Assembly: GCA_016875395.1 (NCBI GenBank)
Contig: VGRF01000007.1
Span: 1-64,000, forward strand
Direction: 5' to 3'
From: Deltaproteobacteria bacterium
GTDB lineage: Bacteria > Myxococcota_A > UBA9160 > UBA6930
Length of the DNA stretch: 64,000 nt
A program made the position numbers and the translations under genes. The notes beneath the pieces were generated by a model. That model had not been told where the DNA came from and did no database searches. It saw only the letters and a list, made by a program, of their open reading frames with translations. Of this stretch, positions 7,620 through 59,057 are shown in pieces (positions within the stretch are counted from its first letter, which is position 1; each line of letters begins with the position of its first letter).

Positions 7620-7623
<4 letters not shown>
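6772..7623 (-). CDS. CPBP-like membrane protein lacking the full protease motif
   Basis: A 283-residue polytopic membrane protein with about seven hydrophobic segments and a charged, Pro-rich cytoplasmic tail ending DDEEPGSLF. The helix PIVREFFLRGVLLQG aligns with the first CPBP (Rce1-like) motif, normally EExxxR, but the first Glu is Arg. The segment ALLFSPGDP stands where FxxxH is expected, with no His. So the fold looks like CPBP but the catalytic set is incomplete, suggesting a non-proteolytic relative. The ATG overlaps the uvrA stop by four bases (ATGA), so it is translated with uvrA. One Leu-Leu pair (GGLLGALR) is a copy of the dispersed motif. Confidence 0.75.
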
Positions 7624-10492
<2,869 letters not shown>

Positions 10493-10496
<4 letters not shown>

Positions 10497-47253: not shown

Positions 47254-48468
47254 ATGCGGCCGAAGCGCGACATGCGATTGCTCACGCGAATCATGATTCG
47301 CAATTACAAGAGCATCGCCGCCTGCGACGTTCGGCCCGCACAGCTCTCGTTCCTCGTGGGTCCGAACGGGTCGGGCAAGAGCAACTTTCTCGACGCACTC
47401 CGCTTCGTCGCAGACTCGCTTCGGTACTCGCTCGATCACGCGCTTCGAGACCGCGGCGGTATCAACGAAGTTCGCCGTCGTTCGAGCGGTCACCCCACGC
47501 ACTTCGGGATTCGGCTCGAGTTCACGCTTCCGAATCACTACGGCCACTACGCGTTCAACGTCGGCGCGAAGAAGAGCGGCGGCTACGAGGTGCAGCGCGA
47601 AGAGTGCCGAGTAATCGGGATCTCGAGTGCGTTTTACGAGGTGGAGTCGGGCGTCGTCCGCGCGTCGTCTCTTGCAGCCCCGCCCGCACCAGCGAAAGAT
47701 CGCCTCTATCTCGTAAGCGCTTCCGGGCTCGAAGCGTTCCGCCCGCTCTACGACTCTCTCTCGAACATGGGCTTCTACAACCTCAATCCCGACCAGATCA
47801 AAGATCTACAGCCGCCCGATCCGGGTGAACTGCTGAGCCGAGACGGGAGCAATCTCGCGAGTGTTGTCGCGAATCTCGCCACGCACGCGCCCGAGCTGAA
47901 GACGAGAATCGAGGAGTATCTCGCGAAGGTCGTGCCGGGCATCGCAGGTGTTGACTCGAAGACGATCGGCCCAAAGGAAACGCTCGAGTTTCGCCAGGAC
48001 GTGCGAGGCGCCAAGCATCCTTGGCGCTTTCTTGCCGCCAACATGTCGGACGGAACTTTGCGCTCCTTCGCTGTTCTCGTCGCGCTCTTTCAGGGAGGAG
48101 CGAGCGGGGCCGCCGCGCGACGCCTGGTCGGGATCGAGGAGCCCGAGGTCGCGCTTCATCCTGCAGCGGCGGGCGTACTGACCGACAGCCTTCAGGACGC
48201 CGCCGAGCACGCGCAGATTCTCGTGACCAGTCACAGTCCAGACTTGCTCGACAACGAATCGATCCCCGATGAGTCGATCCTCGCGGTGTTCGCCGAGCAC
48301 GGCGAAACGAAGATCGGGCGGCTCGACGAAACAGGCCGCTCTGCGCTTCGCGAGCACCTGTACACGGCTGGCGAGTTGCTTCGGATGGATCAGCTTCGCC
48401 CCGACCCTGACCAGACGCGCCTCGATCCCGAACAGCTCGAGTTGTTTGGGGACGCGAGACCCGCATGA
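47254..48468 (+). CDS. AAA/RecF-like ATPase of a two-gene module
   Basis: A 404-residue ABC/RecF-like predicted ATPase (AAA_21, COG4637-type). IMIRNYKSIAACDVRPA is the typical N-terminal strand-turn; Walker A is FLVGPNGSGKSNFLDAL (about 33-49), the signature-like motif is NMSDGTLRSF (263-272), Walker B is LVGIEEPEVALHP (291-303) and the switch His is in LVTSHSPDLLD (His327). ATG 47254 is used; 47272 is also possible. G+C is lower than in the neighbours (sampled lines 60-62% versus 70%), suggesting transfer. Its partner overlaps by ATGA. Proteins of this type occur with TOPRIM-like partners in OLD, Gabija, PARIS and related defence systems. Confidence 0.9.
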   Translation: MRPKRDMRLLTRIMIRNYKSIAACDVRPAQLSFLVGPNGSGKSNFLDALRFVADSLRYSLDHALRDRGGINEVRRRSSGHPTHFGIRLEFTLPNHYGHYAFNVGAKKSGGYEVQREECRVIGISSAFYEVESGVVRASSLAAPPAPAKDRLYLVSASGLEAFRPLYDSLSNMGFYNLNPDQIKDLQPPDPGELLSRDGSNLASVVANLATHAPELKTRIEEYLAKVVPGIAGVDSKTIGPKETLEFRQDVRGAKHPWRFLAANMSDGTLRSFAVLVALFQGGASGAAARRLVGIEEPEVALHPAAAGVLTDSLQDAAEHAQILVTSHSPDLLDNESIPDESILAVFAEHGETKIGRLDETGRSALREHLYTAGELLRMDQLRPDPDQTRLDPEQLELFGDARPA

Positions 48469-49052
48469 GGCTTGCAACGATCGTCGAGGGCCATGGTGAC
48501 GCCGAGGCCGCGCCCGAGTTGATTCGGCGGATTGCAGTGTCGATCTCACGCGAGGTCGAAGCGCTGCGGCCCATTCGGATTCCGCGGCAACGGCTCCTCA
48601 AGGCAGGCGAGCTCGAGCGCACGGTCGAGTTCGCTGCTCGCCACGCAGGCGCTGGTGGCGGCGTTCTGATCCTGCTCGACGCCGACGACGATTGTCCGGC
48701 AGAACTCGCGAGCGAGCTTCTCGCGCGAGCCCGCGCAAGACGCGGTGACCGTGAGATTCGTGCCGTCCTAGCAAAGACCGAGTTTGAGGCGTGGTTCCTC
48801 GCATCGGCGACGTCGCTTCGGGGGAAGCGCGGGTTACGGTCAGACCTTTCGCCGCCGGCTGATCCCGAAAGCATCCGAGATGCGAAAGGCTGGCTATCGA
48901 GCGCCATGCCGGCGGATCGCTCGTACCGCGAGGTGCTCGATCAGCCTGCGTTCGCAGCAACGATGGACCTCGACGAGGCGAGGCGAGCGCCGTCGTTCGA
49001 CAAGTTCTGGCGAGACGTCGAATCACTCCTCCGGACGCAAGTCCCCACATAA
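48465..49052 (+). CDS. DUF4276, TOPRIM-like partner protein
   Basis: A 195-residue protein that overlaps the AAA-ATPase stop by ATGA, so the two are translationally coupled. Motif IVEGHGDAEA (Glu8) and LILLDADDDCP (Asp72, Asp74) are the Glu and DxD pair of TOPRIM-type nucleases, and LAKTEFEAWFLAS is the characteristic DUF4276 segment. So a metal-dependent phosphodiester cleavage or nucleic-acid switch is inferred, with the ATPase as sensor. DUF4276 is repeatedly found next to AAA_21-type ATPases in varied genomic positions. The stop is in a dispersed-motif copy (CATAACAAC). Confidence 0.87.
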   Translation: MRLATIVEGHGDAEAAPELIRRIAVSISREVEALRPIRIPRQRLLKAGELERTVEFAARHAGAGGGVLILLDADDDCPAELASELLARARARRGDREIRAVLAKTEFEAWFLASATSLRGKRGLRSDLSPPADPESIRDAKGWLSSAMPADRSYREVLDQPAFAATMDLDEARRAPSFDKFWRDVESLLRTQVPT

Positions 49053-56827: not shown

Positions 56828-58942
56828 GTGCCCGATCGCATCGTGCAGGAGGAGCTGGAGCTGCTCGCGCGGGTTCGCGAGACGCTCGGCGCGAACGCCG
56901 AGCCGCCGCCGCCCAACGAGTCCGGGCTCGTGCAGGACCTGCACGGCATCCGCGATCAGCTGCTCGAAGGTGCGCCCGACCTCTACGACCAGACGCAGCT
57001 GACGCAGCGCTTCCACGTGCAGAGCTCGGTGCTCGATCAAATCCGCAAGTCGCGCGGCGCGCCGCGCGTCGACGGCGCGTCGCCGTACTTCGCGCACCTG
57101 CGCCTCCGCGAAGGCGGGCGCGTGCGCGATCTCTGCATCGGTAAGGCGACGCGCCTCGACCACGGCCTCCGCATCGTCGACTGGCGCAACGCGCCGATCG
57201 CGCAGCTCTTCTACCGCTACCAGCAGGGCGACGAGTACGAGGAGGAGATCAGCGGGCGCGTGCAGGCCGGCCACGTCGAGGCGCGGCGCACGGTGACGAT
57301 TCGCGCGGGTGCGCTCGAGCGCGTCGAGTCGCCCGAGGGCGTGTTCGTGCAGGACGCGAGCGTGGACGAGGGCTGGCGCGTGTCGGCGAAGACGCTGCCG
57401 CGCCTCGCGGGCGGCGAAGGCGCGGCGCTGCGCGTGCAGGAAGGCGAAGGCGGCGCGCGGCGGCTCGGCACCGACCCGAGCGGGCGCGCGCTGCGAGCGG
57501 ACAAGCGCCTGCCGGACATCGCGGGCCTGATCGATCCCGCGCAGTTCGACCTGATCACGCGCCCGAGCGCGGGCCTCGTCGTGATCCGCGGCGCTGCGGG
57601 CTCGGGCAAGACGACCGTTGCGCTCCACCGCATCGCGTACCTCGCCTACGACGACGCGCGCATCGACTCGAACGAGACGCTCTTCGTCGTGTTCTCGCAG
57701 GGCCTGCGCGACTACGTGAGCCACGTGCTGCCCGCGCTCGGCGTCGCGCGGGTCGCCGTGCGCACCTTCCACCAGTGGTCGAGCGAAGTGCGCCGCCGCC
57801 ACTTCCCGGGGCTCGCCGAGAACGTGCGCGACGACACGCCCGCGCTCGTGACGCGCCTCAAACTGCATCCCGCGATGGAGACGGCGCTCGAACGCCAGGT
57901 CGCGCGCGCGCCCGCCCAAGCCACGCGCGGCCGCGTCGTCGACGACTGGATCACGGTGCTGAGCGATCTGCCGTTCCTGCAGAGCGTCTTCGCGGAGGTC
58001 GCGCCGGACGCGTTCCGCGCGGGCCACCTCGAAGAGGCCGTGGCGCATTGCCGGCGCCAGCTCGAGGCGGTGCAGGCCTACATCTCGGGCGACCACGACG
58101 CCGAGGCCGAGCTCGATCCCGAGGACGACGCGCTGTTGTTACGGGCGTGGCAGCTGCGGATGGGGCCGCTGCTCGCGCAGAACGGCGCGCCGCTCGAGCT
58201 GCGCCACATCGCGATCGACGAGGTGCAGGACTTCTCGCCGCTCGAAGTGCGCGTGCTGATCGAGTGCGCGGGCGAGCGCCGCAGCGTGACGCTCGCGGGC
58301 GACACGCAGCAGCACGTGATGCAGGCCGCGGGCTTCACCGATTGGTCGCAGTTCTTCCGCCACCTCGGCCTCGAAGCGGCGCACGTCGACACGCTGCAGA
58401 TCAGCTACCGCTCCTCCGCCGAGATCACGCGCTTCGCGATGGAGCTATTAGGTCAGCTGCGCGAGAAGGACCTCGCCCTGATGACGACGCGCTCGGGCCC
58501 GCCCGTCGAGATCTTCCACTACACCGAGCACGGCGCCTGCATCGCCTCGCTCGCCGATGCGCTGCACGCGCTCGCGAGCGCCGAGCCGCTCGCGTCGGTG
58601 GCCGTGCTCACGCCGTCGCGCGAGCTGAGCGAGATCTACTTCCGCGGCCTCCAGCAGAGCGACGTGCCGCGCCTGCGCTGGGTGCAGCAGCAGGACTTCG
58701 CGTTCACGCCCGGCGTCGAGGTCACCGATGTCGAGCAAGTGAAGGGCCTCGAGTACGACTACGTCGTGCTCGCCGGCTGCGACGCCGCGCACTTCCCGCC
58801 CGACGCCAAGTCGCGCCGCGTCCTTCACGTCGGCGCCACGCGCGCCGTGCACCAACTGTGGGTCACGTGCGTGGGCGAGCCGAGCCGCGTGATCGAGGAA
58901 GCCGAGCGCGCGTGCGCGGTGGGCGGCGTAGAGAGCGCTTAG
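56828..58942 (+). CDS. UvrD/HelD-like superfamily 1 helicase
   Basis: A 704-residue SF1 motor. Motif I is VVIRGAAGSGKTTVALHRIA (about 249-268); motif II is IAIDEVQDFSPLEVR; motif III is SVTLAGDTQQHVMQAAGF; motif IV is LQISYRSSAEITRFAMELLG; motif V/VI are VEQVKGLEYDYVVLAGCDAA and HVGATRAVHQLWVTC. A helical N-terminal arm (IVQEELELLARVRETLGANA) fits HelD/HelR proteins that remove RNA polymerase, as well as UvrD-like DNA helicases. The GTG start is at 56828. It is divergent from the HerA-like gene, 132 bases apart, so they may share regulation. Confidence 0.88.
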   Translation: MPDRIVQEELELLARVRETLGANAEPPPPNESGLVQDLHGIRDQLLEGAPDLYDQTQLTQRFHVQSSVLDQIRKSRGAPRVDGASPYFAHLRLREGGRVRDLCIGKATRLDHGLRIVDWRNAPIAQLFYRYQQGDEYEEEISGRVQAGHVEARRTVTIRAGALERVESPEGVFVQDASVDEGWRVSAKTLPRLAGGEGAALRVQEGEGGARRLGTDPSGRALRADKRLPDIAGLIDPAQFDLITRPSAGLVVIRGAAGSGKTTVALHRIAYLAYDDARIDSNETLFVVFSQGLRDYVSHVLPALGVARVAVRTFHQWSSEVRRRHFPGLAENVRDDTPALVTRLKLHPAMETALERQVARAPAQATRGRVVDDWITVLSDLPFLQSVFAEVAPDAFRAGHLEEAVAHCRRQLEAVQAYISGDHDAEAELDPEDDALLLRAWQLRMGPLLAQNGAPLELRHIAIDEVQDFSPLEVRVLIECAGERRSVTLAGDTQQHVMQAAGFTDWSQFFRHLGLEAAHVDTLQISYRSSAEITRFAMELLGQLREKDLALMTTRSGPPVEIFHYTEHGACIASLADALHALASAEPLASVAVLTPSRELSEIYFRGLQQSDVPRLRWVQQQDFAFTPGVEVTDVEQVKGLEYDYVVLAGCDAAHFPPDAKSRRVLHVGATRAVHQLWVTCVGEPSRVIEEAERACAVGGVESA

Positions 58943-59057
58943 GCGATCGCCGGGCGTGCGAGCTCGCGCAGCGCCGCGCGCGAGCACGACGCCCACCCGG
59001 CAGAAAGCGAGCGCCATCGCGACGACGGTGGCCCGTTGATGGAGAGCTCGGCTCCGC

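Follow-up and report, generated by a model that had tools for sequence, protein, structure and literature searches.

An apparently acquired ATPase/DUF4276 gene pair matching the candidate defence system HEC-01

The window analysed here, a stretch of 64,000 nucleotides from a deltaproteobacterial contig, carries two overlapping genes for an ABC/RecF-like ATPase and a DUF4276 protein which, judged by their profile matches, are a member of HEC-01, a candidate defence system already held in PADLOC-DB (2023). The explanation we favour, and consider reasonably probable, is that the pair is an acquired HEC-01 module in which an ABC-ATPase sensor restrains, and on a cue releases, a predicted Toprim nuclease; that the pair has a role in defence we regard as very likely. 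HEC-01 is a widespread and apparently uncharacterised candidate, to which we add a probable assignment of the catalytic site of DUF4276, evidence from an empty site that a restriction operon can carry the pair as an optional insert, and a variable segment in the ATPase. The abbreviation HEC stands for Hma-embedded candidate, and these embedded candidates were reportedly described by Payne et al. in a 2024 preprint.

The gene pair and its identity

The ATPase (HEC-01A, 404 aa) is encoded on the forward strand at 47254..48468, where ATG 47272 may be an alternative start to 47254, and the DUF4276 protein (HEC-01B, 195 aa), a predicted Toprim nuclease, follows on the same strand at 48465..49052. 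As the original prediction had it, the two ORFs share an ATGA start/stop overlap (48465..48468), which likely reflects translational coupling. Only 9 bp lie between the stop of the upstream enoyl-CoA hydratase (ECH) gene and the ATPase ORF, and 19 bp between the end of the DUF4276 ORF and the start of a short-chain dehydrogenase (SDR) gene. Both assignments draw on profile matches, residue conservation and predicted models. In Pfam, the ATPase matches AAA_21 at 99 bits, and its partner matches PF14103 at 57 bits, where the cutoff is 30. In PADLOC-DB, the ATPase matches the HEC-01A profile PDLC04178 over residues 7-400 (E = 2.2e-164, 545 bits), and the adjoining partner, with its 4-base overlap, matches the HEC-01B profile PDLC04196 over residues 1-190 (E = 3.2e-75); the strength of these two matches places the pair in HEC-01. 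At E-values up to 1, the only PADLOC profiles matched by the DUF4276 protein are HEC-01B and PDC-M25B.

The pair had been put forward as a possibly parallel, little-studied type outside the known ones. This is not supported, as HEC-01 has been in PADLOC-DB since 2023 and is listed among the predicted systems of Desulfovibrio piger in a 2025 paper (PMC12724379). A 2026 study of archaeal defence reports several HECs with antiviral activity, HEC-06 among them, and does not mention HEC-01 (PMC12988326). In the literature searched, which did not extend to the original HEC preprint, we found no phage phenotype or experimental test of any HEC-01, and no mention of DUF4276 by name.

Pairing of the two genes is near-obligate. 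When the 80 best DUF4276 loci were drawn from 84,980 scanned species genomes, an ATPase homologue lay directly upstream of DUF4276 in 79, and the two genes overlapped by 4 bases in 34 of the 78 pairs measured. Strong but divergent PF14103 matches from the window's phylum, in which 44 of 189 sampled genomes score above the PF14103 cutoff, have an ATPase homologue adjoining in 28 of 30 cases.

Composition and distribution

Composition was compared across the 46 genes of the window that reach 400 bp, whose G+C averages 70.3% and whose GC3 averages 0.894. The ATPase gene has the lowest G+C of this set (62.8%) and the third-lowest GC3 (0.751, z = -3.5), while the DUF4276 gene has the third-lowest G+C (65.1%) and the lowest GC3 (0.704, z = -4.5); in codon-usage fit, DUF4276 is the worst of the 46 and the ATPase the third-worst. 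The ECH and SDR genes on either side are of ordinary composition (GC3 0.94 and 0.93). These values bear out the earlier impression that the segment lies below its surroundings in G+C. The cassette holds 0 copies of the most over-represented 8-mer, TCGCGCGC, where about 2 would be expected, an absence that lower G+C alone could explain. Elsewhere in the window, a 189-aa ORF on the reverse strand (58448-59017) has the second-lowest GC3 (0.747) and the second-worst codon-usage fit; it has no Pfam match and is possibly another acquired gene.

Among 80 genomes of the order, the ATPase occurs in two: the source genome and one from another family (G025), where the ATPase is 78% identical and a DUF4276 partner is also present at 58% identity. 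All other searched genomes of the window's family lack the ATPase, and its other relatives fall in Acidobacteriota, Gemmatimonadota, Pseudomonadota, Planctomycetota, Actinomycetota, Latescibacterota and other groups. The codon-usage signal together with this patchy distribution points to horizontal transfer of the pair, in line with its original description as an acquired two-gene module. The same distribution bears on a housekeeping role, in which a RecF-like ATPase and an RNase M5/RecR-like Toprim protein would act in DNA repair. Toprim proteins and RecF-like ATPases do occur in repair, and the local neighbours in the window are metabolic, but presence in only 2 of 80 genomes of the order, a strong codon-usage outlier signal and the defence neighbours of relatives make a repair function highly improbable.

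We sought the exact empty site of the window's copy and found none; the relatives searched include no genome of the same genus. In two genomes of the same family, the orthologues of ECH and SDR share a strand but are separated by 4.4 and 7.2 kb of sequence that holds other genes and lacks the cassette; neither a tRNA nor convincing flanking or target-site repeats were found at the window's cassette. Partner swapping was also considered for the two pairs of the order, given the disparity between ATPase and DUF4276 identity (78% and 58%), and was rejected as a strong claim because other pairs with 75-85% ATPase identity have DUF4276 proteins at 58-84%.

The ATPase and its variable middle segment

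The ATPase carries a Walker A motif (G36-S43), an ABC signature (S265-x-G267-T268), a Walker B motif (I294-E295-E296) and a His/Ser switch near S328. Across 61 relatives, G36, N38, G41, K42, N44, S265, G267, T268, E295, P297, E298, H302, P303 and S328 are invariant, and the P-loop (G36-S43), the signature, E295/E296, H302-P303 and S328 vary little or not at all. A C-terminal region (GELLR..QLRP) is conserved as well. Taken with the active-site residues of DUF4276 described below, this conservation suggests that both parts of the module are intact. The predicted model (pLDDT 95.6) adopts the head fold of SMC, Rad50 and PtuA (Z about 20-22), with PtuA (of Septu and retrons) and GajA among its matches to defence proteins; a sequence-profile search puts an OLD-family nuclease (6p74) closest among solved chains.

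Between the conserved halves lies a fast-evolving middle segment (residues ~85-165, 47506..47748, forward strand), delimited by a dip in pairwise identity. Within the window's own clade, mean pairwise identity falls to 0.53 over residues 85-165, against 0.81 over residues 10-80 and 0.70 over residues 256-345. A similar pattern is seen in six Streptomyces copies embedded in restriction-modification (RM) operons, where the ATPases are 81-86% identical to that of L048 and the M, R and DUF4276 proteins are about 90-96% identical. Their ATPase divergence is concentrated at positions corresponding to window residues ~88-205 (down to 0.53), the catalytic halves remaining mostly at 0.86-1.0, and dN/dS is about 0.28-0.33 for the ATPase and about 0.14-0.19 for DUF4276 and R. 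Such values suggest relaxed or diversifying change, with positive selection unproven, and the reading we favour is that the middle segment may be the surface that binds a trigger.

DUF4276 as a predicted Toprim nuclease

Structure prediction, called for when the pair was first noted, gave a confident and Toprim-like model of the DUF4276 protein (pLDDT 95.8, pTM 0.91). Its top matches in VIA-align are the C-terminal regions of three OLD Toprim structures (Z 9.4, 9.0 and 8.7 over 162-166 of 195 residues); unrelated Rossmann-like folds come next, with Z values reaching 8.2 over some 130 residues, and AriB of PARIS scores 7.7 over 145 residues. Foldseek against the PDB returned no confident match, the best being lumazine synthase, which has another fold (E = 5e-3). 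A sequence search against PDB chains likewise gave no credible match, and hhalign against five OLD Toprims set the VEG and DxD motifs in register at low probability (1.5%). Because Foldseek is unconfident and unrelated folds reach Z values of about 8, the Toprim call rests mainly on the correspondence of residues.

In BpOLD, the metal ligands are E400, E404, D455, D457 and E508, and K562 is the catalytic lysine (PMC6755086). The DUF4276 residues E8, D/E12, D72, D74, E108 and K141 parallel this site in order, matched by order and spacing rather than by superposition, and the first two residue pairs have i+4 and i+2 spacings identical to those of BpOLD. Among 67 relatives, E8, D72, E108 and K141 are conserved in all 67, D/E12 in 66 and D74 in 65, so that Glu8 and Asp72/74, singled out in the original prediction, were correctly placed and are conserved or nearly so. 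We consider DUF4276 a probable OLD-type Toprim nuclease with a predicted catalytic site of E8, D12, D72, D74, E108 and K141. The view that DUF4276 stands outside the TOPRIM family of OLD, Gabija and PARIS is thus upheld at the level of sequence family, but not by the predicted fold and catalytic residues, which resemble those of an OLD-type Toprim.

Conservation in 23 divergent DUF4276 proteins separates a core from a clade-specific set of residues. E8, D72 and E108 are invariant and an acidic residue (E or D) occupies position 106, E106 in the window's protein, in 22 of them, while the second Asp of the DxD motif is present in only 7 and K141 is mostly lost; the core metal site would therefore be family-wide, and the full OLD-like set a feature of the window's clade. 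Divergent subfamilies without the second Asp (in L139-L168, with motifs such as FDLYGLP) keep E8, D72 and E108, which suggests a different metal site in these proteins.

The resemblance to OLD allows a more direct mode of action, in which the ATPase would position DUF4276 on phage DNA for cutting, as in OLD or Gabija, with no sequestration or release. Fold and active-site order are closest to the DNA-cutting OLD nucleases, and the ATPase head is closest to the DNA-binding families SMC, Rad50 and PtuA. However, the effector here is encoded on its own as a small protein, an arrangement shared with PARIS and AbiL but not with OLD, where the two parts are fused, and DNA binding by the pair is putative. 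A direct nuclease complex is possible, though in our judgement somewhat unlikely, and restraint and release of the nuclease by the ATPase remains the reading we prefer.

Genomic neighbourhoods of relatives

The window's copy is solitary, lying between the fatty-acid-type ECH and SDR genes with no recognised defence neighbour among the window genes scanned. The one strong match among these genes, to the PADLOC mad3 (337 bits) and mad8 (127 bits) profiles, was rejected, being an ordinary UvrA of 958 aa at 7620-10496 on the reverse strand; cross-hits of this kind could yield false MADS calls.

A search for known defence genes near relatives of the pair, likewise proposed at the outset, found defence neighbours, individually checked, in at least 16 of the 80 loci. 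In ten actinobacterial loci the pair sits in a type I restriction operon, nine of them having the contiguous order M-S-ATPase-DUF4276-R and the tenth (L053) having R further downstream; the type I RM context was verified with PADLOC in L048 and L057, and R alone in L068. This position between hsdS and hsdR is occupied by two different ATPase clades. A Streptomyces mirabilis plasmid (NZ_CP108478.1) carries M (74%), S and R (76%) with an S-R gap of 2 bp and no pair, a natural empty site which shows the pair to be an optional component of this operon. Relatives also lie inside DISARM loci (DrmA/DrmB in L003 and L037, DrmA in L014), between HmaB and HmaC (in the order HmaB, ATPase, DUF4276, HmaC, in L017), beside a type III methylase (L067) or a type I methylase-specificity fusion (L032), and beside Gabija on a Streptomyces plasmid; pooled neighbour scans add DrmMI, type IIG, DruM/type II methylases and PDC-S01. 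In a control set of 101 genes from the window and related loci, the matches were that of UvrA to mad3/mad8 and two weak ones to BrxP; since this set was not matched by taxon, we give no rate for defence co-location. The co-location with type I RM, DISARM, Hma and Gabija agrees with the initial view of the pair as a candidate defence system.

Two further features of these loci were observed. In the Streptomyces operons of L048, L050, L056, L063, L070 and L075, hsdS is about 28-32% identical to that of L048 and M and R are 91-96% identical, a pattern consistent with specificity shuffling beside the HEC-01 insert. In L171 (NZ_CP108307.1, 618887-635456), a plasmid-borne HEC-01 pair has IS5 and ISL3 transposases in its vicinity, together with a gene for conjugal transfer.

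The same neighbourhoods bear on whether the pair could be a toxin-antitoxin or plasmid-stability system and not a phage defence. It is a coupled two-gene operon, is found on Streptomyces plasmids and once near transposases, and its AAA_21 family is annotated as an AbiEii-like toxin family; repeated insertion in restriction, DISARM and Hma operons, however, is atypical of addiction modules, and we think such a role decidedly unlikely.

Proposed mechanism

In PARIS, a hexamer of AriA keeps AriB sequestered until the binding of Ocr or another trigger sets it free (PMC12409363), and it is by analogy with AriA and AriB that we propose restraint and subsequent release of DUF4276 by the ATPase. The ABC ATPase would dimerise or oligomerise around ATP and hold DUF4276, an OLD/AriB-like Toprim two-metal nuclease, in an inactive state. 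A phage cue, probably a protein binding the variable middle segment, would then change the ATPase so that the nuclease is freed or activated, and the nuclease would cut nucleic acid, its substrate being tRNA (the target of AriB) or DNA (the target of OLD), and so stop the infection, probably sacrificing the cell in the process. What the analysis shows is the gene pair with its mark of acquisition, its near-obligate pairing, the intact motifs of the ATPase, a Toprim-like predicted fold with conserved metal ligands, and the co-location of relatives with defence systems; complex formation, restraint and release, trigger, substrate and abortive outcome we infer.

A narrower form of this explanation concerns the trigger. 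Placement inside restriction operons suggests that HEC-01 may guard against phage anti-restriction proteins, sensing them as PARIS senses Ocr and acting when restriction is blocked. HEC-01 of the window's clade would then be a portable restriction guard and a counterpart of PARIS, an optional cassette whose diversifying ATPase segment recognises anti-restriction proteins. The hsdS-hsdR position of the pair in nine actinobacterial loci (and in a tenth with a distant hsdR), its occurrence in DISARM and Hma loci, the empty operon of NZ_CP108478.1, the variable middle segment and the precedent of the PARIS trigger (PMC12409363) are all consistent with this role, but a recognised restriction neighbour is lacking for the window's copy and for many relatives, and co-location in defence operons may reflect only shared transfer and regulation. 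We therefore offer it tentatively, as an unlikely but testable trigger hypothesis supplied by these insertions, within the broader scheme of restraint and release.

Comparison with known systems

Both subunits match the HEC-01A and HEC-01B profiles over nearly their full length, and at the level of the family the embedding of a relative between HmaB and HmaC (L017) fits HEC-01; the window's copy differs in having no recognised defence system nearby. With OLD nucleases and GajA the pair shares an ABC ATPase with a predicted Toprim domain, the matching order of metal residues and catalytic Lys, and the best structural match, but OLD and GajA are single polypeptides, whereas the window's pair consists of two separate ORFs. 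Gabija additionally has a UvrD-like helicase (GajB), whereas no helicase adjoins the pair, the next gene being the short-chain dehydrogenase. The likeness to PARIS lies in a two-gene operon with a separate ABC ATPase as predicted sensor and a predicted Toprim effector, and in the AriB structural match; however, AriB profiles do not find DUF4276 (PADLOC, E up to 1), and the tRNA target of AriB and the PARIS trigger are unproven for HEC-01. The analogy with OLD and PARIS drawn in the original prediction is supported, the family having a Toprim-like predicted fold and defence genes among its neighbours. AbiL (AbiLi/AbiLii, RloA/RloB-like) also combines an ATPase with a small separate effector: the ATPase matches the AbiLi profile at 80 bits (PADLOC), and the best match of DUF4276 among viral models in BFVD is an RloB-like protein (E = 9e-4, TM 0.55), but DUF4276 has no AbiLii match (PADLOC, E up to 1). 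If the predicted architecture is correct, another large family would join OLD, Gabija, PARIS and AbiL in combining an ATPase with a Toprim protein.
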